NCBI GenBank assembly: GCA_015296085.1 | Contig: DVDT01000003.1 | Coordinates: forward strand, 1 to 64,000 | DNA: 64,000 bases | Direction: 5' to 3' | Origin: Trichormus sp. M33_DOE_039 | Lineage (GTDB): Bacteria > Cyanobacteriota > Cyanobacteriia > Cyanobacteriales > Nostocaceae | Shown: positions 2,958-27,029 of the stretch, piece after piece | Layout of the letters: each line of letters opens with the position of its first letter | Numbering within the stretch: position 1 is the stretch's first letter | Notes under the pieces: generated by a model | The model's input: the letters and a program-made list of their open reading frames with translations, nothing else | Told to the model about the DNA's origin: nothing | Database searches by the model: none | Translations under genes and position numbers: made by a program

Positions 2958-3176
2958 AAATTTTGCCCAGAGGATTCACCTAACTAGATTCGCACAATCC
3001 CTGCTGAAAATGCCTCCCGCATTTGGGTTAAGTATAAATACTCTTCGACCTCTGATACAATCCTTGAGGCGTGATTAATTCTCAATCAGGTTTGAAACAG
3101 AATCCGACAGAGACGCGCTGCCAAAAACTAGTTATGTCTGGCTTTCCTAATTTTGAATCTTAAATTTTGAATAGGT

Positions 3177-3854: not shown

Positions 3855-3925
3855 TCAGGGAATTGGGAATTGGGCATAGGAAGTAAAAGGAAAAATTTTC
3901 TCTTACCTGTTAACTTTCTTGTTCC

Positions 3926-4363
3926 CTATTCTCCTGATATTTGCAAAAAGATGCTTCTTTTGCGTGGGCCATCTAATTCAAAGAATAATACTGATTGCCA
4001 AGTTCCTAGGGCTAAATGGCTGTCAACAATGGGGATAACTTCACTGGTAGTCAGCATAATTGCCATGAGGTGGGAGTGAGCATTCATTGGCTCGTCTTCT
4101 GGGACAACTCTTAAATGTAGGTCGTTATGTAAGTAACGGTCTGTTTCTGGTGCGAGTTTATTTAAAAATACTTTGATATCTTCTAATAGTCTCTCTTCGT
4201 CTTCATTAATTGCTAAAGCTGTGGTGGTATGTCTAGAAAATATTAATACTTGACCATTTTTTATATTAGTTTCCGCAAGAAACTCTTTGATTTGGGGTGT
4301 AATGTTATAGATATTAATCCCTGTGGCAGTTTCGACTTCAATGATTTTATTAATAATGGACAT
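3926..4363 (-). CDS. YjbQ/UPF0047 family protein
   Basis: The 145-residue protein matches the YjbQ family in size and in its signature: FSRHTTTALAINEDE near residue 43, then HNDLHLRV and a second histidine block (NAHSHLMAIML). It ends with LALGTWQSVLFFELDGPRKR. The conserved histidines form a putative metal or phosphate site. Family members have weak thiamine-phosphate synthase activity in some bacteria, but the physiological function is unsettled. It is convergent with the SDR gene and sits just downstream of the aminotransferase gene on the same strand. Confidence 0.9.
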   Translation of the reverse strand: MSIINKIIEVETATGINIYNITPQIKEFLAETNIKNGQVLIFSRHTTTALAINEDEERLLEDIKVFLNKLAPETDRYLHNDLHLRVVPEDEPMNAHSHLMAIMLTTSEVIPIVDSHLALGTWQSVLFFELDGPRKRSIFLQISGE

Positions 4364-4404
4364 AAGCTAAAAACTGAAAATTCAATAGTGCGGTTTTTAT
4401 TTTC

Positions 4405-5580
4405 TCATTTTGCAGTCACTAAGATAGTTTTTAAACCATTAACTAATCTTGCCATCCCTGCTTGTACAGTATCTTTTTGCAATGCACCATAGGCAACTCG
4501 CAAATAACAGCCATTTTCCATACCAAACGTTGTGCCAGGAATGACGGCAATTTGATGTTCTTGAATCAGTCTTTTGACTAATGTAAAAGCATCTATTTGG
4601 GTATGTACTTTGAGGAAAAAATAAAACGCACCGTCAGCAGGAGTGATGGTGCATAAGCCTTGTAGCTGTTCGAGATATTCTAAAACTATTTGCCGTACTT
4701 GAGCGATCGCACCAATATTTTCCTGTAAATACTCGTCTTTTGCTTGCAATGCTCCCAAGGCCGCATATTGAGACACTACTGGCGGACAAATCAAAATCGT
4801 ATCCTGGACTTTTTTAATCGCCACCAGCAGGTGTTTCGGTATCACCATATAGCCAATACGCCAACTCGCAAAACCATAAGCTTTGGAAAGACTAAACAGA
4901 GAAATTGTGTATTCACTACTGCCAGCAAATGATGCGGGAGAAGTATGTTTTACACCGTCATAAGTAAAATATTCATATGCTTCATCGCTGATGTGATAAA
5001 TCTGGCGATCGCGACAAAGTTGATTAACTTGACGCAATAATTTTTCACAATAAACTACACCAGTAGGATTATTAGGCGAAATGGTGACAACTGCCCGTGT
5101 TTTAGCTGTAATAGCTTGAGCGATCGCATCGAGTTGCAATTGATAATTTTCATCTGTTTCTACTAACACCACACGACAACCAGCCATCGTAATCGCCATC
5201 TCATGGTTGAAGTAATAAGGCGTATTCAAAATAATTTCATCCCCAGGGGAAGTAATGGCAAGAATAGCATTCATAAATGCCATATTGCTTCCTGCCGTGA
5301 CGACGATGCAATTTTCTGTATTAATTTCAATCTGATTAAATGCTAATAATTTTTGTGCCAATGCCGTCAATAAAGGTGGAATGCCCTCCACAGCCTTATA
5401 CAAATTATTAGTACTTTCACCTAAAAATTGCGGTAAAAGTTCTATAGCTTCCGGTGGTGGACTATAAGAAACCACACCCTGTCCCAAAGAAATAGTCCCT
5501 GGAGAATTTTTAATTAATTCCCCAACCACAGGAATAATTGGCGACTGTACCGCCTGCATTCGCGAGATGAATTGATTCAT
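4405..5580 (-). CDS. PLP-dependent class I/II aminotransferase
   Basis: The 391-residue protein has the fold-type I aminotransferase pattern: SLGQGVVSYSPP near the N-terminus, GSNMAFMNAI for the phosphate-binding turn, SPNNPTG, and DEAYEYF for the pyridine-contacting Asp. The Schiff-base lysine is in SLSKAYGFASWRIGY, and the carboxylate-binding Arg is in YLRVAYG near the C-terminus. All catalytic residues are present. Substrate specificity (aspartate, aromatic or other) cannot be read from sequence here. It probably shares a transcript with the yjbQ-like gene 41 bp downstream. Confidence 0.93.
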   Translation of the reverse strand: MNQFISRMQAVQSPIIPVVGELIKNSPGTISLGQGVVSYSPPPEAIELLPQFLGESTNNLYKAVEGIPPLLTALAQKLLAFNQIEINTENCIVVTAGSNMAFMNAILAITSPGDEIILNTPYYFNHEMAITMAGCRVVLVETDENYQLQLDAIAQAITAKTRAVVTISPNNPTGVVYCEKLLRQVNQLCRDRQIYHISDEAYEYFTYDGVKHTSPASFAGSSEYTISLFSLSKAYGFASWRIGYMVIPKHLLVAIKKVQDTILICPPVVSQYAALGALQAKDEYLQENIGAIAQVRQIVLEYLEQLQGLCTITPADGAFYFFLKVHTQIDAFTLVKRLIQEHQIAVIPGTTFGMENGCYLRVAYGALQKDTVQAGMARLVNGLKTILVTAK

Positions 5581-5618
5581 TAGTCAATAGTCATTAGTGA
5601 TTGGTTTTATACCCCCTG

Positions 5619-5662
5619 CTCCCCAATCCCCAGTCCCCAATCCCCAATCTCCAATCCCCAGT
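5619..5662. repeat. heptamer short tandem repeat (CCCCAAT/CCCCAGT)
   Basis: Six successive seven-base units of the form CCCCAAT or CCCCAGT, with one substitution, lie upstream of the aminotransferase start. This is the STRR type common in Nostocales intergenic DNA. Confidence 0.85.
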
Positions 5663-5781
5663 ATTTCCTCAGAATATTTGCAGTTATAGCTAGGTCACAC
5701 AAATATTTTTAAAGAATTTTGATAATTTGCCCCTCTGTTTGGTATTTCTGAAAAAGTCATGACATTTTGGAGTATCGCTCT

Positions 5782-5916
5782 ATGGCTAAAGTTAAAAGTC
5801 CCGCAGTTGCAAACTCAGGTGCTAAACCCCCCTATACTTTCCGTACAGGTTGGGCATTATTGTTACTAGCTGTTAACTTTTTGGTAGCAGCTTACTACTT
5901 CCACATCATTGACTAG
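5782..5916 (+). CDS. psaX: photosystem I subunit PsaX
   Basis: This 44-residue reading frame has a short polar N-terminus and one membrane span. Its core, YTFRTGWALLLLAVNFLVAAYYF, closely matches what I recall of thermophilic PsaX (FRTFWAVLLLAINFLVAAYYF). PsaX is a peripheral single-helix subunit of the cyanobacterial photosystem I trimer and helps coordinate antenna chlorophyll. It is known in Thermosynechococcus and some filamentous strains. The gene is monocistronic, with a 200-bp upstream gap. Identification rests on recalled sequence rather than a search. Confidence 0.85.
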   Translation: MAKVKSPAVANSGAKPPYTFRTGWALLLLAVNFLVAAYYFHIID

Positions 5917-5988
5917 TTAGCTTGGGTATGGGGGATAGGGAATGGGGCATGGATAAATCAACAATGCCCAATGATGGCACTTGATTTT

Positions 5989-6114
5989 CTAGGAGCGTCG
6001 CTAAGGCTACGCTCCTAGAGTCACCCAAAGGGCTTGCCGCAGGCATCTAAAGTTTGGGGTAGACCCCTTCTCTACGAAACGCGCTCCACGAACGCGGAGT
6101 GTGTCGTAGAGAAG
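5989..6114. repeat. palindromic dispersed repeat elements
   Basis: Two hairpins sit side by side downstream of psaX. The first has 9-bp arms (CTAGGAGCG at 5989-5997 and its complement at 6010-6018). The second has 11-bp arms (CTTCTCTACGA at 6067-6077 and its complement at 6104-6114) with an inner inverted pair. Between them lies a 20-mer at 6029-6048 that recurs exactly at 33978-33997. They look like fragments of Nostoc-type dispersed repeats. Confidence 0.8.
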
Positions 6115-6155
6115 ACCGCAATGCCTCTCCGATGCCCAAAAGCTGATAGTGTTAC

Positions 6156-7022
6156 TCACATCGTGCCTTTGAACAAACCTTTGGGACGAATGAGTAACAC
6201 TAAAATCATGATTAATAGGGCAATACCTTGCTTATACTGTGAACCCAGCCAAGGAGTACTAACTTCCTGCACGATACCAATGATAAAAGCTGCGGCGATC
6301 GCGCCGTAAGGATTCCCAATCCCTCCCAAAATGACCGAAGCGAATAAGGGTAGAATCAAAAACCATCCCATATTGGGGCGTACAGCCGTCAATAAGCCAT
6401 ACATACTGCCACCAAAAGATGTGAGTGAACCAGCAATGATCCAAGTCCATAAGACGACTTGATCCACATCAATCCCCGAAACTTTGGCTAAATCTAAATC
6501 ATCAGCTACAGCCCGCATCGCCTTGCCAATTTTCGTATTTTGCAATAGATAATGCAAAGCCAAAATTATCAACACCGCTAAACCCAAAACCAACAGTTGA
6601 TTTTGCGTGACTCTGACACCAAAAATATCTAAAGCGGGAGTAATCGGTAAATCATAATTTTGATTCTTACCACCCCAAATTAAAATCACGCCATTACGTA
6701 AAAATAAAGCCAAGCCAATGGAAATGATAATAAGTGTTGTGGAAGTAGCACGGATAGAGCGCATTCTTGACCACAATAATTTTTCTGATAACACCATCGC
6801 TAAGACTGTAACTACTGCTGCCACAATCATAGACAGCCAAATATTCACCCCAAAGGTATTTATAAATAGCGTCAAATAAGCTCCTAAAGTTAAAAAGTCA
6901 CCATGAGCAAAATTTGACAACCGTAAAATCCCGTAAGTGAGTGTCAGTCCAACTGAGCCTAAAGCAATAATGCTCCCTACAGCAATACCATTGACGATAA
7001 GTTGAATAATTTGTGTAACCAT
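6156..7022 (-). CDS. natD: LivH-type amino-acid ABC permease (NatD-like)
   Basis: The 288-residue membrane protein belongs to the LivH branch of branched-chain amino-acid ABC permeases. Signs are GIAVGSIIALGSVGLTLTYGILRLSNFAHGDFLTLGAY at the N-terminus, the EAA-like region GKAMRAVADDLDLAKVSGID around residues 165-185, and about eight hydrophobic spans. In Anabaena the N-I neutral amino-acid permease has its LivH subunit (NatD) encoded apart from natA/B/C. The lack of other nat genes here fits that arrangement, so NatD is my inference. It would work with a LivM-type partner, two ATPases and a periplasmic binding protein encoded elsewhere. Confidence 0.8.
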   Translation of the reverse strand: MVTQIIQLIVNGIAVGSIIALGSVGLTLTYGILRLSNFAHGDFLTLGAYLTLFINTFGVNIWLSMIVAAVVTVLAMVLSEKLLWSRMRSIRATSTTLIIISIGLALFLRNGVILIWGGKNQNYDLPITPALDIFGVRVTQNQLLVLGLAVLIILALHYLLQNTKIGKAMRAVADDLDLAKVSGIDVDQVVLWTWIIAGSLTSFGGSMYGLLTAVRPNMGWFLILPLFASVILGGIGNPYGAIAAAFIIGIVQEVSTPWLGSQYKQGIALLIMILVLLIRPKGLFKGTM

Positions 7023-7213
7023 CAGTTTTTATCTAAAAAAGTCAGCTAATATTCATTTGTAGTGGTTGATATCAAATAATGTTTTTGGCTATACGGTGAT
7101 GATCGACACTAATAAGTTATGATTTATCGACATCAGAGAATTGTGAGCTAATATACATAGAATCCTGTTCGCAATTTTTGCGTAATTAAACTTGTCCAAC
7201 GGTCTGGTTGACC

Positions 7214-9007
7214 ATGCAGCAGTATTCAAGCTTACCAGAACACAACTCACAGGTAGATGCCACAATCCAAAGACTTCGAGCTGAGTTATGGCTGGAGAGC
7301 CGCTTGAACCAGCTACAAAGTCGCCTACATGATTGTCTGCTAGCTGTTGTTACGGGTTGCTCCCCAAGCAACAACCCAGAAGCAGAAATCTGGCAAACTG
7401 TGGCAGATGAAATTGGCATGGCTTTAAAAAATAGTGCGGTAACTATTGTTATTTGCCTACCGCAAGACACAGTTGGTAAAGTTTACTATATTTCTTGCCC
7501 ACTATCTGTTGATTCCCAGCCCTCTGTAGCGGAATTAACGCTCAAGGGTGGTAAGAAACTGCGTTTGGAATTACAAACAGCAATTAAACTTCAAGATTTA
7601 CAAGATTTAGCGACTCAACAACCCCCTCAAGCTTGGCAATTATCCGAAGTATCATCTGGGGTGATGGGATGGTTACTTCTGGCTACGGTCAAATCTAACT
7701 CACAAGCTAAAATTGTCATAGATGCACAAGAGCAACTTACTCAGCAATTTATAGATAAAGCAACCAAGCACTGTATTCAAGCATTAGTTCACTGCAAAAA
7801 GTTACAAGCTTTAGAACAGCGATCGCAGCACTTTTGCGATTCTAATCAAGAATTAAAGCGAACAAATCAACTCAAAAACCAGTTTTTAGCTAACACCAGC
7901 CACGAAATTCGCACACCACTCAGTTCAATTATTGGTTTTACCCACTTACTGTTAGCTCAAGGCTACGATCCCACCAGAGAACGCCATCGAGAGTATTTAA
8001 ATATCATTCAATCCAGTGGTAAACATCTACTAGCTTTAATTAACGATATTTTGGATCTGTCTAAAATTGAAGCTAATCAGTTAGAAGTGCAATGGGAAAA
8101 AGTCGATGTCCCGGAATTGTGTCGTAATGTTCTGACTCTAGTCAAAGAAAAAGCCAGCAATAAGGGGTTGAAATTAGTTTTAGAAATAGATGTTGAAGTC
8201 ACAAACTTGATAGCTGATCCTTTACGGCTCAAGCAAATGCTCTTAAATTTGCTGTTTAACGCTTTAAAATTTACTAGCAAAGGCATTGTAGGTTTAAAAG
8301 TGACACAACAAAATTCATTAGTGCATTTTACAGTTTGGGATACAGGTACTGGCATACCCAAAGAACACCAAGCTTTACTGTTTCAACCTTATTACCAAAT
8401 TCCTCATTCTTCCTCTAGCCAAAATGAAGGTACTGGCTTGGGTTTAGCTGTAACTCAAAAACTGGCAGCAATTCATCATGGTTATGTAGAGGTAGAATCA
8501 GAAGTTGATAGTGGTTCTCGTTTTACAATCACTTTGCCTCTAAAACCAATAGCAGCAGTTTTACCTACAGAAATTGAAGAGGATGAACCACCAGTATATT
8601 TACAGCCTTTACCCATAAATCCCAGCAATTGCAGAGAAATTTTACTAGTAGAGAATGATGTACCTAATGCTGAAATGATGCAAATTCATCTAGCTAAGTT
8701 AGGCTATCAAGTGACTTGGGTGATAAATGAGGCTGAAATGTGGAATGCACTTACCCAGAAACAGCCAGCTGTTATCTTAATGGATATACGCTTACCCGAT
8801 AGCAATGGTCTGAATTTGATCCAACAGTTACGAGCGAAACCACAATACCAGAAAATTCCCGTCATTGCCCAAACCGCAATGGCCATGAAAGGCGATCGCG
8901 AAATCTGCCTAACAGCGGGATTCAATGAATATATTTCTAAGCCCATTGACTTATCAATGTTGGCCGATTTAGTAGCAAAATACAGTCAGGTAGAAGGTGA
9001 CGGGTGA
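7214..9007 (+). CDS. hybrid sensor histidine kinase with C-terminal receiver
   Basis: The soluble protein of ~597 residues has an N-terminal sensory region of ~200 residues that could be a divergent GAF fold. A HisKA domain follows with its phospho-accepting His near residue 230 (SHEIRTPLSSIIGF). The HATPase domain has the N box (LLFNALKFTSKG), G1 (DTGTGIPKE) and G2 (GTGLGLAV). A receiver domain carries its Asp near residue 524 (LMDIRLPD) and the conserved Lys (YISKPI). No membrane span is visible, so it senses a cytoplasmic signal. I use the ATG at 7214; an in-frame TTG at 7208 is the alternative. It is divergent from the natD-like gene across 191 bp. Confidence 0.92.
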   Translation: MQQYSSLPEHNSQVDATIQRLRAELWLESRLNQLQSRLHDCLLAVVTGCSPSNNPEAEIWQTVADEIGMALKNSAVTIVICLPQDTVGKVYYISCPLSVDSQPSVAELTLKGGKKLRLELQTAIKLQDLQDLATQQPPQAWQLSEVSSGVMGWLLLATVKSNSQAKIVIDAQEQLTQQFIDKATKHCIQALVHCKKLQALEQRSQHFCDSNQELKRTNQLKNQFLANTSHEIRTPLSSIIGFTHLLLAQGYDPTRERHREYLNIIQSSGKHLLALINDILDLSKIEANQLEVQWEKVDVPELCRNVLTLVKEKASNKGLKLVLEIDVEVTNLIADPLRLKQMLLNLLFNALKFTSKGIVGLKVTQQNSLVHFTVWDTGTGIPKEHQALLFQPYYQIPHSSSSQNEGTGLGLAVTQKLAAIHHGYVEVESEVDSGSRFTITLPLKPIAAVLPTEIEEDEPPVYLQPLPINPSNCREILLVENDVPNAEMMQIHLAKLGYQVTWVINEAEMWNALTQKQPAVILMDIRLPDSNGLNLIQQLRAKPQYQKIPVIAQTAMAMKGDREICLTAGFNEYISKPIDLSMLADLVAKYSQVEGDG

Positions 9008-9082
9008 TAGGTGACAGGGGAGACAAAGCAGATAAAGTAAAATTTGCTACTATCTCTAATGCCCATTGACTAATGATTATTA

Positions 9083-9907
9083 ATGATGATGCTGACAGAA
9101 AAACTAGAGAAACTAAAAGCTTTATTTGCAGAGATGGGACAAGCTTTGATTGCCTACTCTGGGGGTGTTGATAGCACTTTGGTAGCTAAAATTGCTTATG
9201 ATGTTTTAGGCGATCGCGCTTTGGCTGTGACGGCTGTTTCACCCTCGCTGCTACCAGAAGAACTAGAAGATGCGAAAATTCAAGCCGCAACTATTGGGAT
9301 TCCTCACAAAATCATCCAAACCCATGAAATGGAAAATCCCAACTACACTGCTAACCCCGTGAATCGTTGTTATTTTTGCAAGAGTGAACTACACGACAAC
9401 CTCAAACCTTTGGCTTTAGAGTTGGGCTATCCCTATGTAGTGGATGGGGTGAATGCTGATGATTTGCATGATTATCGCCCAGGAATCCAAGCCGCTAAAG
9501 AACGAGGTGCGCGATCGCCTTTAGCGGAAGTTAGGGTAACAAAGTTAGAAGTCCGACAACTTTCTCAACAACTAGGTTTACCCTGGTGGGATAAACCAGC
9601 CCAACCTTGTCTGAGTTCCCGTTTTCCCTATGGCGAGGAAATTACCGTAGCTAAATTACAGCGTGTCGGTAGAGCAGAAATTCACCTGCGGAAATTAGGC
9701 TGGCAAAATTTGCGTGTCCGTTCCGAAGGCGACACAGCACGCATTGAACTACCACCAGAAAAAATTAAAGATTTCGTTCTGATGACAGATTTACAATCTG
9801 TAGTCGCCGCCTTCCAAGAATTTGGATTTATTTATGTCACTTTAGATTTAGAAGGCTATCGCAGTGGCAAATTAAACCAAGTCCTCAATCAAACGCTCAG
9901 TGCGTGA
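9083..9907 (+). CDS. larE: ATP-dependent sulfur transferase LarE
   Basis: The 274-residue protein has the PP-loop SGGVDST near residue 24 for AMP transfer and matches LarE along its length. LarE sulfurates pyridinium-3,5-biscarboxylate mononucleotide while building the nickel-pincer cofactor. Three cysteines stand out: CYFC near residues 96-99 and the CLSSR cysteine near residue 176, the position of the sacrificial cysteine in lactobacillar LarE. This three-cysteine set is the pattern of [4Fe-4S]-type LarE enzymes, which use the cluster rather than sacrificing a residue. No larB or larC is nearby. Three ATGs lie in tandem at the start. Confidence 0.9.
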   Translation: MMMLTEKLEKLKALFAEMGQALIAYSGGVDSTLVAKIAYDVLGDRALAVTAVSPSLLPEELEDAKIQAATIGIPHKIIQTHEMENPNYTANPVNRCYFCKSELHDNLKPLALELGYPYVVDGVNADDLHDYRPGIQAAKERGARSPLAEVRVTKLEVRQLSQQLGLPWWDKPAQPCLSSRFPYGEEITVAKLQRVGRAEIHLRKLGWQNLRVRSEGDTARIELPPEKIKDFVLMTDLQSVVAAFQEFGFIYVTLDLEGYRSGKLNQVLNQTLSA

Positions 9908-9971
9908 TTGAGAATTGGGCATTGGGTATGGTAACAAATTTTACTTTGTCTCCCTTGTTTCCCTACTTCTC

Positions 9972-10334
9972 TTAGATAGTCTCCGCCTCTACAGAGACTA
10001 AAATACAACCGTTAATCTTCCAGGAATCATCCCATTGCTTTTCCATAAAATATAAAGCTCGCAGGGGCATACCGTCCGGTGCTAGCAATAATACTGGCTG
10101 AGTAATATTGTCTTGAATAGTGGTGATTTTCTCAAAAAATACTGAACGTGGACGGTAAACAGCTGGGTAACTCATACTTACCATCCGCATAAAGTTTTCT
10201 GCGGTTTGGAATTGCTCTTTAATTCCAGGACTAGCAAGAGAGAAAGCAACTTGAGCATCATCTTTTTGAAATGCTTCTAGTTGTCTTTCTATAACGGAGC
10301 GTATAGCAATAAAATCGTTATCGGTAGCTTCCAT
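9972..10334 (-). CDS. DUF4864 domain protein
   Basis: The 120-residue soluble protein has the DUF4864 layout. It starts with helices (AIRSVIERQLEAFQKDDAQVAFSLASPGIKEQF), then AENFMRMV and YPAVYRPRSV, and ends with beta strands including ALYFMEKQWDDSWKINGCILV. The fold resembles NTF2-like barrels. Function is unknown. It lies 28 bp upstream of the SGNH hydrolase stop on the opposite side of its gene, so the two minus-strand genes may be co-transcribed, hydrolase first. Confidence 0.8.
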   Translation of the reverse strand: MEATDNDFIAIRSVIERQLEAFQKDDAQVAFSLASPGIKEQFQTAENFMRMVSMSYPAVYRPRSVFFEKITTIQDNITQPVLLLAPDGMPLRALYFMEKQWDDSWKINGCILVSVEAETI

Positions 10335-10362
10335 AAATCTGCAATTTGATCACTAGGGATGC

Positions 10363-11499
10363 TCAGTTTTTTGTTTGAGAAAGTTTGAACTCTACTTGTT
10401 GGAGGGCAAATCGCCAAACATCGTAACCATCTGGAGACAAATGTATGCCATCGGTGGTTAAATCAGAGCGCAAATTGCCATCAGCATCCGTAAACCAATT
10501 ATGTATATTTAAGTAATTCACTCCTTCTTGTTTAGCAATCTGAGCAATTTTGGTGTTGAGATGGCGAATACGACTATTAGATATTGTTGATACGTGAGCT
10601 GGTAGAATAGATTGCACGAATATCTGAGCTTTGGGGTGATTTTGTCGTAAACTACGCATCATCCGGCGGTGATTTTGCAAGATAGTTTCGTCCCTAACAC
10701 TTTTTCTCAAATCGTTAATCCCAGCCATGATGTAGATTGCTTCTGGGCGAGTTTGTGAAAAGGCGGCTAATCGTTTGACTATTCCACCAGAAGTATCTCC
10801 AGATATGCCTTGATTCAGCCATAATTTACCAGTAGGCAGCTTTGCTCTGGGAAACCACAGGCTTAAGGAGTCACCGACTAAGATACTGAGACGATTTTTA
10901 CCTTGACCTTGGGCGATCGCTTTGGCTTCTAAAGCCAGTAAACTTTTCCAGTCCTCATAAGTTAATTGCTGTTTTCCTCTTGATTCCCCTAATCCTGGAT
11001 CGATATCTGTGCGGGTATAAATTTGACCTGTCTTGAGTGCTGCCAGTCTTTGATAGTAAAGTTGATTGCCAGAGGTTAGCAGTAAGTTAATCGGTTGATG
11101 ACTAGGATTGAATAAAGAATCTAGTGATATTGGCAAATCTGGATTAGTCAAATCCTCACTAGACAGTTTTTTCTCACTAGCTCTTGGTTCTGAAGCCTCT
11201 GAAGTGGGTAAAATTTGGCTGCTCAATTCTGGGAAAGAGAGATTTAGTAGCTGAGAGACAGGTTTTTTACTGAGTTTTGGTTGTAAACTTTCTCCTAGTT
11301 GCGATACTTGATTGCTAAATTCTGGATTTGACACATTACGTGTGAGGAGATATTGTGCATCTGTTATGGTTTGGGAATCTGGTTTTGTACTCAACTGAGA
11401 GTCATGTTGTTCCGGCAAAATCGACAATTGTGGAAAAGCTGATGCCGGTATTGCCAATCCTGTTAACAAGCCTGCTGCCAACAGATAAGAATCCCTCAT
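10363..11499 (-). CDS. secreted SGNH/GDSL hydrolase
   Basis: The 378-residue protein has a signal peptide (hydrophobic LLAAGLLTGLAIPASAF at residues 6-22). A Ser-rich, low-complexity linker runs to about residue 150, and an SGNH domain follows. Catalytic blocks are visible: VGDSLSLWFP (Ser, block I), NQGISGDTSGG (Gly, block II), MAGINDLRK (Asn, block III) and DGIHLSPDGYDVW (Asp/His, block V). It should be an exported esterase, lipase or peptidoglycan/polysaccharide deacetylase; the substrate is unknown. It is a paralogue of the gene at 17720-18541, sharing the same block spellings. Confidence 0.9.
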   Translation of the reverse strand: MRDSYLLAAGLLTGLAIPASAFPQLSILPEQHDSQLSTKPDSQTITDAQYLLTRNVSNPEFSNQVSQLGESLQPKLSKKPVSQLLNLSFPELSSQILPTSEASEPRASEKKLSSEDLTNPDLPISLDSLFNPSHQPINLLLTSGNQLYYQRLAALKTGQIYTRTDIDPGLGESRGKQQLTYEDWKSLLALEAKAIAQGQGKNRLSILVGDSLSLWFPRAKLPTGKLWLNQGISGDTSGGIVKRLAAFSQTRPEAIYIMAGINDLRKSVRDETILQNHRRMMRSLRQNHPKAQIFVQSILPAHVSTISNSRIRHLNTKIAQIAKQEGVNYLNIHNWFTDADGNLRSDLTTDGIHLSPDGYDVWRFALQQVEFKLSQTKN

Positions 11500-11927
11500 C
11501 GCTGTTTCTCTCCTCTCATTACTGCTTTTCCCTTTGACAGTCTTAATTGTCCGTATTCAGGAAATTTTACGGTGGTTAAAATATCATTCTTATGTATTAT
11601 GTATATTTCTGTAAACCAGGTTAACGATATTATCTTTGACAATTTACAAATTCTTTAAAGCTTATCTTTTCTAGTATATAGACGAGATAGAGTTAACCCT
11701 GATATTCAGCTTCAGAAATAGCATATCTAAATGTATAAATAATCCTAGATAATATTTCTTATGTTTAATTATTAATTGAATGTATTAATTAATACTATAT
11801 ACTTAAAATTTTGCATTAAAACATTTAGTTATGTGTTCTGACATATTTAAATTCAATTATATTGATGAATAAGCTAGTAAGAAGTGCTAAGATTTAGGCG
11901 AAGTAATTGATTTTTCCCTGTAATTTT
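11500..11927. other. AT-rich divergent intergenic region
   Basis: This gap separates the SGNH hydrolase (minus) from a small plus-strand gene. It is very AT-rich from 11580 to 11900, and I see no gene or clear operator in it. It presumably carries both promoters. Confidence 0.5.
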
Positions 11928-12122
11928 GTGGCTAGAGCTAGTACAGCAATTGGTGTCAGTCCAATTATTAAAGAAATAGTGCAGAAACAAGCACATTCCA
12001 CCCGATTAACTCTAAAAGAGGTAATCCTCATGGGAATGTTAGCAATAGATAAGCTTGATGATCAAAGTCGTCAAGAATTAGCAGATCAAGTCCATCAAAT
12101 GCAAGTAAATGGTGAAATCTGA
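11928..12122 (+). CDS. small hypothetical protein
   Basis: From a GTG at 11928 this frame encodes 64 residues: ARASTAIGVSPIIKEIVQKQ, LTLKEVILMGMLAIDKL and a charged C-terminus. The composition is helical and the repeated I/L spacing looks like a small DNA-binding or antitoxin-like protein, but no family is recognised. A TTG at 11907 in the same frame is an alternative start. Neither start has a clear ribosome binding site. It stands alone between divergent and convergent neighbours. Confidence 0.5.
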   Translation: MARASTAIGVSPIIKEIVQKQAHSTRLTLKEVILMGMLAIDKLDDQSRQELADQVHQMQVNGEI

Positions 12123-12172
12123 ATCTGCTTTCTAAAGTTAATAGTCCCCATTACCCAGTCAATATCACAGCC

Positions 12173-12310
12173 AGAATTTATAATCAGAATCGACAAGTCA
12201 GAATCAAGCATGATTTAATATTCGATTTCCAACATTTTAATAAAACAAGAGTTTCCTAAATTCTTGTTTCACCACTCATGCTTAATTTTGACTTCTGATT
12301 TCTAAATTCT
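12173..12310. repeat. imperfect long inverted repeat (hairpin element)
   Basis: Two ~37-bp arms, from AGAATTTA at 12173 and ending TAAATTCT at 12310, are largely complementary, with one 7-base insertion and a few mismatches. A second inner hairpin (AAACAAGA / TCTTGTTT) lies between them. The element fills the gap before the methyltransferase stop and resembles a small non-autonomous palindromic element. Confidence 0.6.
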
Positions 12311-12353
12311 TGCTCATACATAAAATTCCCCCTATTGACTGATTGACTATTAA

Positions 12354-13271
12354 CTAATCACCAAATCGATAACGACTTCCCATAACATAATCTTGATTTA
12401 TCTCGAATGAAATCCATCGGCGTTGTAAAGTTTCAGCAACAAAACCAGTCGTGTTAGAACCTGCAAACGGATCTAGGACTAAATCGCCTTCATCAGTCAA
12501 AAACTTGATGAAAAATTCAGCAAACCCTTGGGGAAATCTTGCTGGATGAGGTTTAACTCCGGCTGCTTTACAGCGTCGTAAATAAGCACTATTAGACTCA
12601 GTGTTGGCAATTTCTAGCAAATTCGGTGGAATTGCGCCTTGGTTATCTTTTTGAAATTTCTCAGAAATCTCGTGTCCACTTGGACGCATTTGAGCTTTAT
12701 AGCCGTTTTTGAGTAACTGCTTCATGCTGTGGCTATAGGGCTTTAAGACTTTTCTGTTATCTGCTTTGGGGTTGGGTGTTTTAGACAACCACCAAACAAC
12801 ATTCACCGCATCTTTGACACGTACTCTTCTGATTGTTACCCATTCTGCTGGGGTGGGTAGTCGTGCTGGATTGTAATGATAGAAATCTTGCGCGAGGAAA
12901 AAGCCGACTTCTTTGCATAGTCTGACTAGAAGTTCGTACTGGTAAATACTGCGCGTAGGATTACCAGGAAGATAAGCACCGCCTAAATCTAAAACGAATG
13001 AACCATTGTCAGTCAAAACTCGTTTAAATTGAACGGCGAAAGGTAAAAACCATTCAATATATTTTTCTGCGCTGGCGTTACCGTATTCCTTTTGGCGTGT
13101 TAAAGCAAATGGTGGCGAAGTGAGAATTAAGTTAATACTGCTGTCTGGGATAGTCGTAATGATTTCCAGACTATCACCTAAATAGGCTTGTCCGTATTGT
13201 TGTGTGTAATAGGGCGAAAAGTCGATAATTGTTCTGGTTGTTGTTTGTTGCGAATTAAATTGCTGTCTCAA
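12354..13271 (-). CDS. orphan beta-class DNA methyltransferase (N4C or N6A)
   Basis: The 305-residue protein has catalytic motif IV (LTSPPFALTRQKEYGN) near residue 51, before the AdoMet motif I (DPFAGSNTTGFVAETLQRRWISFEIN) near residue 265. This permuted order defines beta-class amino-methyltransferases. The SPPF spelling is typical of N4-cytosine enzymes but is not decisive against N6-adenine. A target-recognition region lies between the motifs. No restriction endonuclease gene is adjacent, so it appears solitary, as with several Anabaena methyltransferases. It follows cynS by 13 bp on the same strand, which suggests a shared transcript. Confidence 0.9.
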   Translation of the reverse strand: MRQQFNSQQTTTRTIIDFSPYYTQQYGQAYLGDSLEIITTIPDSSINLILTSPPFALTRQKEYGNASAEKYIEWFLPFAVQFKRVLTDNGSFVLDLGGAYLPGNPTRSIYQYELLVRLCKEVGFFLAQDFYHYNPARLPTPAEWVTIRRVRVKDAVNVVWWLSKTPNPKADNRKVLKPYSHSMKQLLKNGYKAQMRPSGHEISEKFQKDNQGAIPPNLLEIANTESNSAYLRRCKAAGVKPHPARFPQGFAEFFIKFLTDEGDLVLDPFAGSNTTGFVAETLQRRWISFEINQDYVMGSRYRFGD

Positions 13272-20446: not shown

Positions 20447-22267
20447 TTACTCAGTAATTCCATACTGTTGAATCTGCATATTCCACAGGGCGGTGTACTC
20501 CCCGTCATGCTGTAAAAGTTTCTGATGAGTGCCATCCTCAATCAATCGACCAGCTTTGAGGACTAAAATTCTCTGAGCCATTCGCACAGAAGCTAGCCGA
20601 TGGGTAATCAAAATGGTAGTCTTGCCTTCAGCTAGTTCCACAAATCGTAGATAAAGCTCATATTCGCTGCGGGGGTCAAGTGCGGCTGTTGGTTCATCTA
20701 ACAGTAATATCTGAGCTTCCTGACGCACAAAAGCACGAGCTAGGGCTAACTTCTGCCATTCACCACCAGATAGTTCTGTACCGCTAAACTGCTTACCCAG
20801 AGGTGTGTCTTCTCCTGTGGGAAATTGTGCTACTAGTCTGACTACATCGGCTTTTTCTATGGCATATCTGAGTAAATCTCGATGTTCTAGTGCTTGAAGG
20901 TTGCTTAAAGCGATATTTTCTCCGAGGGTGAGGGCGTAGCGACCAAAATCTTGAAACACTCCTGCTATTTGCTGTCGCCACTTTTCTAGGTTTAAATGTT
21001 TCAGGTCTATGCCATCGACTAGAATCCTGCCTTTGGTGGGGTCGTATAACCTAGTCAGTAACTTTACCAGAGTAGTTTTTCCTGCACCATTTTCTCCCAC
21101 AATGGCTACTGTTTCACCTGGGTGCAGAGTAAAAGAAATATTTTTGACAGCCCATCCCTGAGCGTCTGGGTAGCGAAAGTAAACGTTTTCAAAAGTAATA
21201 CCAGAACGAATGGGGTTTGGGGTTTTCTCTCCAGGCACAGTTAATAACATGGGGCTTGTGCTGTCGAGAAAATTGAAGAATTGCTGCATATATAAGACAT
21301 TTTCTAGCAATTCCAGTCCATTACCGACAAACCCGGCAAGGTTTTGTTGGAAGTAAGTTAAAGACTGGACAAATAACAAGACACTACCTGGACTCAATTC
21401 CCCTCTAAAGGCTTTCTGGACAACCCAGTAAAAAGCAAAACCATTACCTAGGGTACTTAAAACAGCTAAACTAGATGACCAAAAAGCTTGTTTACCCCGC
21501 AAATGACGCATAGAGTTGTGTAAAGAGTGGAATGCTTGCAGATATCGCTCAATAAAAAACGAACCTAGCTGGAATAGTCGAGTTTCCTTCGCGTAGGTAT
21601 CAGTCAACATGACTGATGTGTAATACTTCATTCTGCGAGCTTGGGGGCTATTTTCAAACAGAGTCAGCCAAATTGCTTTGCCATATTGAGCAGACACAAC
21701 TACCTGGGGTATAGTGGCGATCGCAATCACTAAGGGAATCCAAAAGGCTAGGGGAATCAATAAACCCACCATCACCACCAAGGTCACAAAAGAGCGACCT
21801 AATTCCACTAAATTTTCCAATAAATTCAACGGTTGATAGCTAACTTGCTCTTGCAACAGCTGTAACTCATCATAAAATTCAGCATCTTCAAAACGGCTCA
21901 GGTCGGGTAAAGTATCAGCTTTACGCATCAACATCAAGCTCATGTGAGCTGTTAATTTATCATTGAGGTTTCCCTGAAGTGCTGTTCGCCAAGGGTCGAG
22001 GAGTGTTTCTAATAATAAAGCACCCACCCATCCCGCAACTAGGGGTAGTACGATATTCCAGCCTAATGCTCTCCCAGAGGATAACTCTGCTGTTACTGTA
22101 TCTATGACTAATTTGGTAATCCAAACACTTACAGCAGGTAAAAACCCCTGCAACAAAATCACAACCATCAAGACTAAAATTTCCTGTGGTGCGGCTGTCC
22201 ATACCAAGGGAAGAGAACGAAATAAAGCCTTAGCGTAAACCTCCAACCAACCTCTTAGTTCGCCCAT
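20447..22267 (-). CDS. ABC exporter, fused membrane and ATPase domains
   Basis: The 606-residue half-transporter has a six-helix membrane domain (residues ~20-320) and an ATPase domain. The latter shows Walker A GENGAGKTT, the Q loop in GVFQDFG, signature LSGGEWQKLALARA, Walker B ILLLDEPTAALD and switch His in ITHR. There is no N-terminal C39 peptidase domain, so it cannot trim a leader itself. It is divergent from the RiPP precursor gene across a 720-bp gap and reads towards the third amt gene. I infer that it exports the RiPP product. Confidence 0.9.
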   Translation of the reverse strand: MGELRGWLEVYAKALFRSLPLVWTAAPQEILVLMVVILLQGFLPAVSVWITKLVIDTVTAELSSGRALGWNIVLPLVAGWVGALLLETLLDPWRTALQGNLNDKLTAHMSLMLMRKADTLPDLSRFEDAEFYDELQLLQEQVSYQPLNLLENLVELGRSFVTLVVMVGLLIPLAFWIPLVIAIATIPQVVVSAQYGKAIWLTLFENSPQARRMKYYTSVMLTDTYAKETRLFQLGSFFIERYLQAFHSLHNSMRHLRGKQAFWSSSLAVLSTLGNGFAFYWVVQKAFRGELSPGSVLLFVQSLTYFQQNLAGFVGNGLELLENVLYMQQFFNFLDSTSPMLLTVPGEKTPNPIRSGITFENVYFRYPDAQGWAVKNISFTLHPGETVAIVGENGAGKTTLVKLLTRLYDPTKGRILVDGIDLKHLNLEKWRQQIAGVFQDFGRYALTLGENIALSNLQALEHRDLLRYAIEKADVVRLVAQFPTGEDTPLGKQFSGTELSGGEWQKLALARAFVRQEAQILLLDEPTAALDPRSEYELYLRFVELAEGKTTILITHRLASVRMAQRILVLKAGRLIEDGTHQKLLQHDGEYTALWNMQIQQYGITE

Positions 22268-22987
22268 TCATTACAACCTGTTTGTTATTTAGTGTTGGTA
22301 AAATAGTTTGCCGTTGTTAATAGTTTTCTCGGAGTAGTCTTTTCTAATTAATAGCTATATTTTTGAGATTTTTGGAATTTCCTACTAAAATTCACTATCT
22401 TATGAATAGCAATCACTATTCATACCTATATTCAATTACACTGATTATTTTCCATTTTTATAAGGATTGAAGATAACTACAATTTGACTAATTCATCTAC
22501 AACCTTAGTATCATCAAGAATAAAAAAAATACTCCTGAAGACATAATAATTAAGACAATAAGTAATTACTTCGGAAAGAATAAAAAGCCTAAGAAGAAGA
22601 TATCGTGGATATTGTTGAAGAACTCAAATAATTGAAAATCAAAGTAACTTCTTGAGGTCAAAAGCAACAGTTGGCTCTGAGGAATCAAGCTTTGGGAGAT
22701 TTAAATCCTAGAGATAGCATACTGTCTAGCACACGCAGTTAGCTTTGATTTTTGTGGACTAGTAATACTGTGAATAGCGAGATGAGAGTTCTCTGTTAAT
22801 GGGATTAATCACATAATGATAGTTCGGACTTTACTGTGCTTTTCTTAGGGAGTAATTTCTGTCTATTTCTCTTACATATCCAGTGATCAAACTCTGTAAC
22901 AGATGGGCATACTTATCACTATTCGCTGTGAAGAATGCAGATGTTCAAATAGTCCAGATTAGTTTAGGTTACAAGGAGTAAATGATA
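22268..22987. promoter_or_regulatory. divergent region between exporter and RiPP precursor
   Basis: This AT-rich 720-bp gap should hold both promoters of the RiPP locus. An open stretch without a normal start codon (22470-22630) reads lysine-rich nonsense, and I do not call it a gene. The precursor start is preceded by AAGGAG at 22973-22978. Confidence 0.45.
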
Positions 22988-23320
22988 ATGTTTACCGAAA
23001 CAAAATTGCTCGAAAAAACTATAGAAATGCGTTTGGCAGACAGCGACGATAAACTTGAACAAGTCCTGCTTTCAGATGCAGAAATGGCAGCTTGGGAAAA
23101 ATTAGCAATTCAAGGAGTAGTTGCTCCCATTATAGGTAACTGCGGTCGATGTTTCGGTTGTGGTCGATGCTTCGGTTGTGGTCGATGTTTCGGTTGTGGT
23201 CGATGTTCCGGTTGTGGTCGATGTGGCCGATGTGGTGGCTGCGGTAAATGTCATGGGTGCGGTATTGGTTCAGCATCAAGTGTAATTGATGAAGATTCTG
23301 AGATGGGATTCGGATACTAA
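22988..23320 (+). CDS. Cys-rich TOMM (thiazole/oxazole) precursor peptide
   Basis: About 50 leader residues (acidic, amphipathic, with LEKTIEMRLADSDDKLEQVL and AWEKLAIQGVVAPIIG) precede a core built of CGRCFG hexapeptides. Three exact copies are followed by degenerate units CGRCSG, CGR, CGG and CGKCHG. The core holds 14 cysteines, nearly all next to glycine, and ends with the non-Cys tail GIGSASSVIDEDSEMGFGY. Cys-Gly pairs are ideal for heterocyclisation by the YcaO enzyme encoded downstream. I use the ATG at 22988, nine bases after AAGGAG; the ATG at 22982 is three bases from it. The mature product could carry many thiazoles. Confidence 0.9.
   Translation: MFTETKLLEKTIEMRLADSDDKLEQVLLSDAEMAAWEKLAIQGVVAPIIGNCGRCFGCGRCFGCGRCFGCGRCSGCGRCGRCGGCGKCHGCGIGSASSVIDEDSEMGFGY
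23141..23224 (+). repeat. 18-bp tandem repeat encoding the RiPP core
   Basis: Units of 18 bp (TGYGGTCGATGTTTCGGT and variants) start at 23141, 23159, 23177 and 23195, with a 12-bp partial at 23213. Each codes for CGRCFG, or CGRCSG in the fourth. Nearly all differences are silent, so the core has expanded by recent slippage or unequal exchange while keeping its peptide. Confidence 0.95.
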
Positions 23321-23529
23321 AAATACGGCTTTGTAGCTAGCTGCAAAATTTCAAACTGTTGCTTTTGTCCATTTTTTTCAACTACTGTCGTCGTAGGAAG
23401 TGAGTTTGTTAATAAGCATATAAAATTTCACTATGGCATCAGTAGTAACGTAGCGATCGCACAGAAATTAATATTAACCAAATCAGATCATTTTTTCTCC
23501 CAAAATATTCTTCTCAAGAACAGTTTTAC

Positions 23530-23552
23530 AGGTGGCGGTTGATGCGCCACCT
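23530..23552 (+). terminator. hairpin between precursor and modification genes
   Basis: The 8-bp arms AGGTGGCG and CGCCACCT enclose a 7-base loop 67 bp before the ThiF-like gene. No T run follows, so it is more likely an mRNA processing or stability element, or a leaky attenuator, than a full terminator. Such an element would allow precursor transcripts to outnumber those of the enzymes. Confidence 0.5.
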
Positions 23553-23618
23553 AATAACAACAACACTTTTTCTTCCCCTAAACCCCTGTTTATTGAAAGC
23601 TTGGGATAAGAAAAACCT

Positions 23619-24746
23619 ATGAAATTAAATGACAATCAACGGTTACGCTTACTAGAGCATCTTTTGATTCAGGTTATGCCTTCAGATGCCGATAAAGACA
23701 GAGAAACGATGATCTTCAACACAACGCGACGGACTTTGAAAGTAGATGGTCAAGCACTGCAAGATGTAGAAAGAATTGTTTTTCCTTTACTAGATGGTAC
23801 GCACACAATAGGCGAAATACGTACGGCTGTCTGGGAACAAATTACAGATTCCTCTTTAGATCAATGTTTAGCATTTTTGATGGAAAATCGCTTAGTTGAA
23901 GAATATCGAGACGACACATTTGATTTAGAGAGTCGCGCTCAATTGCTGCCTCAACTTGGCCTCTACCATGAACTGGGTTTTCAGCAACAAGATGCTCAAG
24001 AGCGTTTAGCCAATGCTCGCATCGCAATTTTTGGACTAGGAGGCTCAGGTCTTGTAGCAGCAGTCAATCTAGCGGCTTGTGGTATTGGATTTCTCCGTCT
24101 ATGTGACAGTATTTCTACATCTCCCTATGATTCCATAATGATGGCAAATTGGGGATTTAGTGAATTTGGTAATTTTCGGGCTGAGGAAACAGCTCGACAG
24201 ATTGCAGCCATAGGGGGAGTGACTACAACCGAGGCTATTACGGATACTTTGACTGATGATGAAACAGTGACAGCTTTGCTGGATGATGTTGATTTAGCCA
24301 TTGTCGCCACCGATGCAGTCCCAGTTAATTTAGCCTATCGCCTCAACCGACTTTGTTTAAAGATGCAATGTCCATTACTCCCTGGGGGAGCTTTTGGGAT
24401 TGAAGGGACTGTCGGCCCTTTAGTTGTGGGTAATGATAGTCCCTGTTATCTCTGCTATCGAATGCGGTCTATAGCTTGTGCTAAGTTACCGGAAGCAGAA
24501 CTGCAACTAGAAAGATTTTTAGATCGCGATCGCCGGTCTCAACCCCAACTGCGAGAAAATTTGCCTATAGGTCACACGTTAGTTGGTAGTTACTTAGTGC
24601 TTGATGCTCTGAAAATGTTACTTGGCCTACCAATTGCCACTGACGGGAAATTACTGCATTTAGATTTAATCACCACCAAATTGACTCACAATGTTGTCCT
24701 TAAAAAGCCTGGTTGTCCTCATTGTTCTTCCATTCGCAATTCTTAA
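23619..24746 (+). CDS. TOMM leader-binding RRE-ThiF protein (cyclodehydratase partner)
   Basis: The 375-residue protein has an N-terminal winged-helix region of ~110 residues resembling the RiPP recognition element (IVFPLLDGTHTIGEIRTAV, LDQCLAFLMENRLVEEY). An E1/ThiF-like domain follows with the nucleotide loop ARIAIFGLGGSGLVAAVNLAA. Two cysteine pairs (CYLC and CPHC) form the structural zinc site. In TOMM pathways this 'C' protein binds the leader peptide and activates the YcaO enzyme. It starts 298 bp after the precursor stop and ends 3 bp before the YcaO gene, so the two are translationally linked. Confidence 0.92.
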   Translation: MKLNDNQRLRLLEHLLIQVMPSDADKDRETMIFNTTRRTLKVDGQALQDVERIVFPLLDGTHTIGEIRTAVWEQITDSSLDQCLAFLMENRLVEEYRDDTFDLESRAQLLPQLGLYHELGFQQQDAQERLANARIAIFGLGGSGLVAAVNLAACGIGFLRLCDSISTSPYDSIMMANWGFSEFGNFRAEETARQIAAIGGVTTTEAITDTLTDDETVTALLDDVDLAIVATDAVPVNLAYRLNRLCLKMQCPLLPGGAFGIEGTVGPLVVGNDSPCYLCYRMRSIACAKLPEAELQLERFLDRDRRSQPQLRENLPIGHTLVGSYLVLDALKMLLGLPIATDGKLLHLDLITTKLTHNVVLKKPGCPHCSSIRNS

Positions 24747-24749
24747 ATA

Positions 24750-26060
24750 ATGAACGCAACAGTTGCTAGTCCACGCTGGCGGGATTTGGTCAGTCCCCAT
24801 ACTGGCATCATTCAGAAATTGGAGAGATTAAGCAAGCCCTATACAGAGTTTGAACTGCCTGTCTTGTGGCAAGTGGAACTTTCGCATTTCAATATCTATA
24901 AATCCCCAGATGATCTGCGTTACGGTGTAGGCAAAGGTATGACTGACGAACAAGCTATTGTCGGTGCTGTCGGCGAAGCTTTAGAGCGTTATTGTGGGAG
25001 CATCGTTGATCGCAGACAAATAATTGTCAGTAATTACGAAAATTTAGCTGAAGGGGCTGTTCCTCCACAAGTTTTTTTCTCGTTTTCGCAACAGCAATAC
25101 TCTGACCCCAATTTTCCTTTTCCTACTTTTGACCCGAAAATGCAGACTTCCTGGGTTACAGCTTGGAATCTGCGTACTCAAAAGCAAGTTCTGCTCCCAG
25201 CCGCCTCAGTGTATCTCAATTTTTGTAGTCATCAATTAGGGGATTCTATATTACCTGTGACGACTAACGGCATGGCGAGTGGCCCATCTGTAGAGTTTGC
25301 GGCCTATAGGGGTTTGTGTGAGTTGATTGAACGTGATGCTTTCATGATTACATGGTTAAACCGTCTTCCAGCCCCCCGCATTGATTTCCATCATAAACCG
25401 GGCATTGAAACTGCGATCACTCGTAACTATGCCAGATTTGGGATAGAGTTGATAGCATTTGACCTCACCACAGACACTCAAGTACCAGTGATTGCAGCCT
25501 TGGCAATTGACCGTTCTGGTCAAAGTCCCGCCCTTGTCACTGGCTTAGGATGTGACTTAGATGGTGCAACAGCCTTTCGCAAAGCCATCTTTGAAGTTTG
25601 CCAAGCTCGTCCCCACGATATCAGTCGTATGACAATCGGAGATGGTGCAAATCTTCATCAATATCAAGATATCCAGGATTTAAAGGATCACAGTGCTTTC
25701 TTTTACGCAACCACAAAACTGGGGGAATTAGATTTTCTACTGCACCATGATCAACGACGCAATATTGAAGATTTACCGATATATGCTGACCACACGGAAG
25801 TAGAAAAATTACAATCAGTAGTCACAAAACTCAATCAAGTTGGTGCTGAAGCTTATTTAGTAGATGTAACCACCCCAGACATTGTACCACTCGGTTTTCG
25901 AGTAGTACGGACGTTAGCTAGTGAATTAGTGCCAATATATTTTGGTTACGGTCAAGAACCCCTTGGAACTCGGCGTTTGTTTGAAGTTCCAGAACGTCTA
26001 GGCTATGGTAGCCGACGTACTCCAGATGACCTGAATCCTTGCCCACATCCTCTTGATTAG
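24750..26060 (+). CDS. YcaO-type TOMM cyclodehydratase
   Basis: The 436-residue YcaO protein uses ATP to activate amide carbonyls and close Cys/Ser/Thr side chains to azolines. ATP-binding segments are visible: GAVGEALERYCG near residue 80 and the helix EFAAYRGLCELIERDAFMITW near residue 190, both with the expected Glu/Arg pattern. The extreme C-terminus reads DDLNPCPHPLD, containing the PxPxP motif that marks azoline-forming YcaOs and is required for catalysis. It is separate from the ThiF partner, not fused. A MITE lies between its stop and the dehydrogenase gene. Confidence 0.94.
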   Translation: MNATVASPRWRDLVSPHTGIIQKLERLSKPYTEFELPVLWQVELSHFNIYKSPDDLRYGVGKGMTDEQAIVGAVGEALERYCGSIVDRRQIIVSNYENLAEGAVPPQVFFSFSQQQYSDPNFPFPTFDPKMQTSWVTAWNLRTQKQVLLPAASVYLNFCSHQLGDSILPVTTNGMASGPSVEFAAYRGLCELIERDAFMITWLNRLPAPRIDFHHKPGIETAITRNYARFGIELIAFDLTTDTQVPVIAALAIDRSGQSPALVTGLGCDLDGATAFRKAIFEVCQARPHDISRMTIGDGANLHQYQDIQDLKDHSAFFYATTKLGELDFLLHHDQRRNIEDLPIYADHTEVEKLQSVVTKLNQVGAEAYLVDVTTPDIVPLGFRVVRTLASELVPIYFGYGQEPLGTRRLFEVPERLGYGSRRTPDDLNPCPHPLD

Positions 26061-26120
26061 AGGCAGGAAGCAGGGAAGACAGGGGGAGTAGGAAAACAAA
26101 AGCCACACCCAGTCCCCAGT

Positions 26121-26268
26121 CTGAAAGGTGTAGGTTTTTAATAGAGCAGTGAGTGATGACTATCAAACCAACGACAGAATGATATTTTCATCCACCCTTA
26201 CACCCCTACACCCCTACACCCTAAAACAGTGTCTTATAGACAAAGCGTAAAAAACCTACACCTGTGAG
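26121..26268 (+). mobile_element. MITE copy 1 (148 bp)
   Basis: The element is bounded by inverted ends, CTGAAAGGTGTAGGTTTTT on the left and AAAAACCTACACCTGTGAG on the right. Inside are the blocks AGAGCAGTGAGTGATGACTA, a CACCCCTACACC tandem repeat and AAAACAGTGTCTTATAG. The same blocks occur at 31078-31372 and, inverted, at 53586-53741. It has no coding capacity. It sits between the YcaO and SagB-type genes. Confidence 0.85.
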
Positions 26269-26294
26269 CAGTCCCCAATCCCTCTACATTAACT

Positions 26295-27029
26295 ATGTAC
26301 AAAGTCAACGAGCCTTTAGAGTTACCCCTGCTTTACCATTTAAATTCCCCACCACCGGAAGCTTACGCACAGCCAGTTCCAGCTAGTGAAATGCGCTATA
26401 TGCCAGATGCTCCTGTTGTGGAATTGCCACCCGCACCACGGGATAACCACCTTGCTAGTCTGTTGAGCAGACGCTGTTCAGTGCGAGCCTTTAAAAATAC
26501 GGAAATATCGCAGATTGTACTGGCACAGTTACTGGATGCCGCTTGTGGGATAAATGGGGTGCGTCAGGTGGAAGGTTATACCTATGAGGGGCGAAATTCA
26601 CCTTCTGCTGGTGGACTGTATCCGATTGAAATGTTTGTATCTATACAGGCAGTAACAGGTTTATCTGCGGGGTTATATCACTATGAGCCACGTGGTCATG
26701 GACTACATTGGGTGAATGAGACTGTACCCAGTGAATTTATTGCACCTTTATTACAGCAGGACTATATTACTCACGCCAATGCTTTGTTTATTCTGACTGG
26801 TGTGTTCATGCGATCGCTCTATAAATATGGTACACGTGGCTACCGCTTTGTCTTGTTTGAAGCTGGTCATCAGGCTGAAAATATCTGCCTAATGGCTGTA
26901 GAGTTGGGACTTGGTAGTCTTTGTCTAGGCGGATTTCAAGATACCAGTGTCAATCAGATTTTGGGTATTGATGGCCAGCGTCATGCCGCACTTTATTGCG
27001 TTGCTGTTGGCACAGCAGCTCATTATTAA
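26295..27029 (+). CDS. SagB/ThcOx-type FMN azoline dehydrogenase
   Basis: The 244-residue nitroreductase-fold protein oxidises azolines to aromatic thiazoles/oxazoles. It has an SRRCSVRAFKN FMN-phosphate loop, the RNSPSAGGLYPIE signature, and MRSLYKYGTRGYRFVLFEAGHQAENICLMA. The Lys-Tyr pair of that last segment matches the catalytic pair described for azoline oxidases. Length is typical of SagB-type enzymes. It is the last gene of the RiPP cluster, 234 bp after the YcaO gene because of the intervening MITE, so it may have its own promoter or read through. Confidence 0.92.
   Translation: MYKVNEPLELPLLYHLNSPPPEAYAQPVPASEMRYMPDAPVVELPPAPRDNHLASLLSRRCSVRAFKNTEISQIVLAQLLDAACGINGVRQVEGYTYEGRNSPSAGGLYPIEMFVSIQAVTGLSAGLYHYEPRGHGLHWVNETVPSEFIAPLLQQDYITHANALFILTGVFMRSLYKYGTRGYRFVLFEAGHQAENICLMAVELGLGSLCLGGFQDTSVNQILGIDGQRHAALYCVAVGTAAHY

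Follow-up and report, generated by a model that had tools for sequence, protein, structure and literature searches.

Here we describe a five-gene cassette at positions 20447-27029 of a 64,000-nucleotide stretch of the cyanobacterium Trichormus sp. M33_DOE_039 (contig DVDT01000003.1, positions 1 to 64,000; hereafter the window). As a whole, the cassette is best explained as one that makes and exports a linear polythiazole, a ribosomally synthesised and post-translationally modified peptide (RiPP) with rings derived from Cys, and judging from the sequence we give this reading a probability of about 0.85. The cassette itself is real, intact and coherent. The gene for an ABC exporter of 606 residues (20447-22267, minus strand) is divergent from the other four, which lie on the plus strand and encode the precursor peptide of 110 residues (22988-23320), a ThiF-type C protein (23619-24746), a discrete YcaO cyclodehydratase or D protein (24750-26060) and a SagB-type flavin mononucleotide (FMN)-dependent dehydrogenase or B protein (26295-27029). 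The open frames of all five genes are intact. The first-pass annotation of this DNA had named the same five parts, a precursor, a ThiF protein with a RiPP recognition element (RRE), a YcaO protein with a C-terminal PxPxP, a SagB-type protein and a divergent ABC exporter, and all of them were borne out at these positions.

Enzymes, exporter and borders of the cassette

Placement among the thiazole/oxazole-modified microcins (TOMMs), or linear azol(in)e-containing peptides, is based on a YcaO protein with a partner C protein, both above the TIGR family cut-offs, and on an adjoining precursor with a leader and a Cys-rich core. The C protein (TIGR03882, 48.3 bits, cut-off 36.9) has an N-terminal RRE-like domain and an E1-like ThiF domain with two CxxC motifs, a pair kept in 39 of 39 C proteins, and its predicted fold aligns with MccB and PaaA over nearly the full length. 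The YcaO protein (TIGR03604, 329.4 bits, cut-off 219.25) ends in NPCPHPLD, and an exact PxPxP is found near the C-terminus in 36 of 39 YcaO proteins. The B protein (TIGR03605, 132.3 bits, cut-off 78.4) carries KYGTRGYR, and KY[GS]xRGYR is kept in all 38 SagB proteins. In these motif counts the 39 YcaO and 39 C proteins include the distant loci L028-L030 described below, while L020, L063 and L064 were left out as second copies of genomes. The exporter consists of a transmembrane domain (ABC_membrane, 18.9 bits, below the cut-off of 28) and an ATPase (Pfam ABC_tran, 118.6 bits); the Pfam and NCBIfam scan gave no match to a C39 peptidase domain in it, and Walker A and LSGG[EQ] are present in 33 of its 34 relatives. 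Families, motifs, fold, conservation and co-occurrence thus support the earlier assignment of the B, C, D and export functions of azole-forming RiPP pathways.

The borders of the cassette can be placed at 20447-27029, with no extra genes, because congeners display the empty site. In the window genome and in genomes G007, G009 and G010 the cassette is flanked by a pair of ammonium-transporter genes with 6514-7078 bp between them, and in six congeners (G002, G003, G004, G005, G006 and G008) the same pair is 211-464 bp apart. The insert is the five genes plus short flanks; genes for a protease, for immunity or for additional tailoring are absent from it. The cassette of G004 sits elsewhere in its genome, and that of G012 is probably also placed between the transporter genes, where its contig breaks; in G001 and G011 no upstream transporter was found, which precluded a judgement on the site. 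An involvement in ammonium transport was considered and rejected, since the flank is seen in just 3 of 24 loci (the window, L005 and L019), as judged within the stretch of each locus at hand, and the six congeners have the pair with no cassette in between. Rfam gave no match, and there were 3 promoter-like sites (4.7 in shuffled sequences) and 1 terminator-like site (0.7).

Precursor peptide and proposed pathway

The precursor gene has a second in-frame ATG at 22982, which would give a peptide of 112 residues. The start at 22988 is favoured by the position of the Shine-Dalgarno sequence AAGGAG (22973-22978, plus strand) and by the alignment to relatives; in 30 of the 35 precursors this hexamer lies no more than 20 nt ahead of the gene. 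Alignment of the relatives delimits a leader of residues 1-51 (22988-23140, plus strand), followed on the same strand by a core of residues 52-91 with 14 Cys and one Ser (23141-23260) and by an acidic C-terminal tail of 19 residues, which ends in GFGY and the stop codon (23261-23320). Residues M1, T11, D21, K22, L23 and E32 are invariant across 18 leaders, two of them from Acidobacteriota. Among 35 precursors (L028, L030, L063 and L064 left out), the median ratio of nonsynonymous to synonymous substitution rates (dN/dS) was 0.25 for the leader (32 codons; 553 pairs used, 33 saturated) and 0.42 for the tail (13 codons; 520 pairs used, 70 saturated). The leader is under purifying selection and the tail less tightly so.

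The core is rich in Cys to the near exclusion of other residues that could be cyclised. In 36 distinct cyanobacterial precursors (a set without L028, L030 and identical copies, with the second precursor of L010, and with L099 and several search loci outside the counts) there are 9-20 Cys per precursor, 538 in total, as against 12 Ser/Thr between the first and the last Cys. Gly precedes 420 of the 538 Cys, 424 of the 502 Cys-Cys spacings equal 3, and the C-terminus is FG[YNH] in all 36 (FGY in 33). If fully modified, a core of up to 20 Cys with almost no Ser/Thr would yield a very long all-thiazole chain. An 18-bp unit is repeated 4.5 times with 95% matches at 23144-23224, so that the window core can alter its length by repeats. 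In locus L010 two precursor genes stand in tandem (6746-7144 and 7300-7632), with cores of different length and 20 and 12 Cys. The window precursor had no NCBIfam match at E 0.1, and a search of the regions preceding the precursor genes, each up to 260 bp long, gave no NtcA-like GTAN8TAC.

The regular Cys-Xaa-Xaa spacing could also bind metal, and the precursor might then be a Cys-rich metal-binding peptide used unmodified while the enzymes act on something else. We consider this very improbable, since the precursor is constantly linked to the C, D and B genes. In addition, the leader is conserved apart from the core and is also found on precursors with other cores beside C, D and B homologues, and the own genome has no unlinked precursor, the only other match to the leader profile being at E 0.42.

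For the polythiazole reading we infer the following pathway, including each reaction, the ring number, the cleavage and the export. The C protein would bind the leader helix through its RRE domain and present the core to YcaO. In an ATP-dependent reaction YcaO would close Cys side chains onto the backbone carbonyl of the residue before them, forming thiazolines, and SagB, with FMN as its cofactor, would oxidise these to thiazoles. Removal of the leader, and perhaps also of the tail, would fall to a protease encoded outside the cassette, and export of the product to the divergently encoded MsbA-like transporter. Now that the limits of the cassette, the start of the precursor and its division into leader, core and tail are set for an uncharacterised cyanobacterial peptide family in several named strains, the product is open to direct production and mass measurement: each ring lowers the computed mass by 20.026 Da, and up to 14 rings would bring the full-length peptide from 11545.165 to 11264.798 Da.

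Several observations weigh against this pathway or its completeness. The residue before Cys in the window core is Gly in six cases, Arg in six, Lys in one and Asn in one, and since 8 of the 14 Cys do not follow Gly, cyclisation may be partial and some Cys may stay open. Exact PxPxP is missing in 3 of the 39 YcaO proteins, the cassette has no protease gene, and the 17-kb stretch of the relative L006 is without a SagB homologue, by which full oxidation is not universal. In L006 (about 9092-13115) YcaO is not followed by SagB, and the rings of its product may remain thiazolines or be oxidised by a different enzyme. The exported polythiazole proposed by the first-pass annotation fits the enzymes, exporter, leader and core; its thiazoles are predicted, and one relative has no local dehydrogenase.

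Distribution, exchange between strains and possible role

A scan of GTDB contigs revealed 26 relatives of the C protein, of which 23 are assigned to Nostocales genera (69-83% identity) and three from metagenome-assembled genomes of Pyrinomonadaceae and Terriglobia (31-34%). Near the C protein in the 23 close loci YcaO is found in 23, the precursor and SagB in 22 each and the ABC exporter in 21. Three of the four missing genes coincide with contig ends (the exporter in L005, the exporter and precursor in L020), and the fourth is the SagB gene of L006; a precursor turns up elsewhere in the genome of L020, on contig G039:C102. Across Nostocaceae the cassette genes are found together as a unit, and other flanking genes vary between loci. 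The distance between exporter and precursor reaches 3168 bp in L068, where three extra frames (2702-4538) account for the larger gap; at the other loci for which it was measured it is 411-1235 bp. Carriage by viruses was rejected, as none of 14 pattern matches in viral contigs was a relative by tblastn; close plasmid relatives were likewise rejected, none of 48 records reaching 60% identity (the best, from Paracoccus, at 34.6%).

An orthologue of the C protein is present in 22 of the 388 genomes of the order, all in one family, and in 15 of 99 nearer relatives (E 1.4e-161 or better). The leader profile, built partly from these 15 relatives, matched the same 15 and gave one weak match (E 0.0025) among 98 searched. 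In the genus of the window the cassette is found in 8 of 13 genomes. So narrow a presence within the order could speak for a decaying, inactive cluster, as could the report, in the accessible part of PMC4603692, that a transposase separates C from D in Anabaena sp. 90. Decay is nevertheless most unlikely, given five open frames, kept motifs, the leader dN/dS and the Shine-Dalgarno sequence in most precursors.

The genes of the cassette do not all share one history. In the trees of C and D, L067 (from G001) and L019 (from G007) are sisters with 100/100 support, apart from the window, L065 and L066, whereas in the exporter tree L067 groups with the window and L066 (99/97) and L019 with L065 (100/99). 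As the tested clades were picked after quick trees, the p-values of the topology tests are post hoc: C rejects the exporter grouping (8.7e-37 and 1.9e-46) and vice versa (8.7e-8 and 1.4e-27), D rejects the groupings of the exporter tree (4.6e-4 and 1.6e-7), and the SagB tree has too little signal (approximately unbiased test, 0.06, 0.36 and 0.24). The trees comprise 34-35 rows without L028-L030, L020, L058, L063 and L064, of which the tests used 16 (15 for SagB), without L005, whose contig has no exporter. The leader variant LEMYL is found in just L067 and L019 among 35 precursors, and both have divergent cores with Tyr-Cys pairs and 9-10 Cys. Conflicting trees and this shared leader and core indicate, at the level of sequence, that the exporter has had a different history from C and D and the precursor type that goes with them. 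Such natural exchange offers a ready experiment on the partners that set specificity.

Patchy presence, a variable core and an exchanged substrate block led us to consider a role as a strain-specific antagonistic peptide, the weakest step of our proposal and one for which the odds are about even. A working polythiazole serving instead as a signal, or as a peptide that the producer exports for its metal or redox activity, is a serious candidate at somewhat below even odds: no immunity gene lies within the empty-site borders, and the core varies while the Cys spacing stays. Patchiness and exchange of the substrate block are more like rivalry than housekeeping, although they are weak evidence either way.

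Known azole peptides and a wider leader family

The cassette resembles the anabaenasins, an uncharacterised TOMM group defined from 11 species by Cox et al. (2015; PMC4603692). The accessible part of that paper describes C and D as separate proteins, the C protein being unique to the group, D proteins closest to those of haloazolisin and mobilisin, and Gly- and Cys-rich precursors, with Anabaena among the hosts; the cluster of Anabaena sp. 90 is the one with the transposase. Discrete C and D and a Gly- and Cys-rich precursor are found in the window as well, and no difference emerged in a comparison made with the description and not with an anabaenasin sequence. Judged by that description, the window family is probably anabaenasin. 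Eight of the 16 genomes in the genus of G039 have YcaO; seven carry the window-type YcaO only and the eighth a 772-residue frame. Anabaena sp. 90 is presumably a member of this genus; no record under that strain name was found among the genomes searched. In the open literature, with subscription journals mostly outside the search, the name was found nowhere besides PMC4603692 and no isolated product of such a peptide was found; none was described in the accessible parts of PMC3542288, PMC3140520, PMC7232259, PMC10783134 and PMC11583998. The novelty earlier ascribed to the precursor family is hence qualified: the group has probably borne a name since 2015, and a product is still to be described in the sources available.

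The earlier comparison with heterocycloanthracin and sonorensin holds for the core chemistry and fails for the leader, the type of cyclodehydratase and TIGR03601. Heterocycloanthracins have Cys-Xaa-Xaa repeats (Haft, 2009; PMC2674419, accessible part) and, like the window, a core that grows or shrinks by units. They have a fused truncated cyclodehydratase and an F protein (PMC4603692, accessible part), in contrast to the discrete C and D and the linked precursor here, and the best TIGR03601 score of four cyanobacterial precursors was 15.2 bits (cut-off 35; second L010 precursor, core alone). Membership was rejected on both grounds. The division of labour between discrete B, C and D proteins is that of the microcin B17 (McbBCD) and streptolysin S pathways, and the SagB-type protein aligns with McbC (E 5.6e-11); unlike these, the window core is almost devoid of Ser/Thr and has its own leader, and the C protein falls far short of TIGR03603 (40.4 bits, cut-off 187.65). 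The YcaO protein aligns with cyanobactin LynD over residues 9-434 (E 1.2e-27). The cyanobactin systems (LynD, TruD) have a fused cyclodehydratase and PatA/PatG-type proteases, and with a discrete YcaO and no protease within the five-gene borders the cassette was not placed among them.

Outside cyanobacteria the leader LEMRVAELEDKL is found on a precursor-like frame beside C, D and B homologues (31-35%, 36-40% and 37-40% identity) in L028, L029 and L030 and on the plasmid of L131. These clusters of Acidobacteriota and Paracoccus share the leader and the three homologues with the window but differ in an added TIGR03975 radical-SAM C-methyltransferase (650.2-779.9 bits, cut-off 281.85), whose gene separates the precursor from C, and in other cores, for example Cys-Thr-Ile-Arg-Ala repeats. 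No match to the window exporter was found in L028-L030. In the Acidobacteriota sample such a C protein was present in 2 of 297 genomes, one of them the query's own. A tentative and rather doubtful generalisation would be a leader family across phyla, in which one leader with C, D and B accepts unrelated cores (Cys-Gly repeats in Nostocaceae, others in Acidobacteriota and Paracoccus), precursor, C and D move between cyanobacterial strains as a specificity block separate from the exporter, and the FG[YNH] tail is a follower-type signal for recognition or processing. The L131 cluster itself (3722-9186 on Paracoccus denitrificans plasmid NZ_CP141053.1), with its precursor-like frame, TIGR03975, C, D and B, is a RiPP cluster that lacks annotation in the table consulted.

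The own genome also has other azole-type clusters, as suggested by YcaO genes for proteins of 760 and 746 residues in L001 (G000:C98) and L002 (G000:C5), the former with ThiF and YcaO domains in one chain. In L004 (G000:C64, 1-3347) a gene for a TfuA-like protein stands beside one for a 402-residue YcaO protein (Pfam), and the adjoining frame of 155 residues, which has no Pfam match, looks Nif11-like by eye. Pairing of TfuA-like and YcaO proteins is characteristic of thioamide-forming RiPP clusters. At the edge of the window, positions 16-381 hold an open frame of 14-residue unit repeats (LILVHLSLNSVDES).

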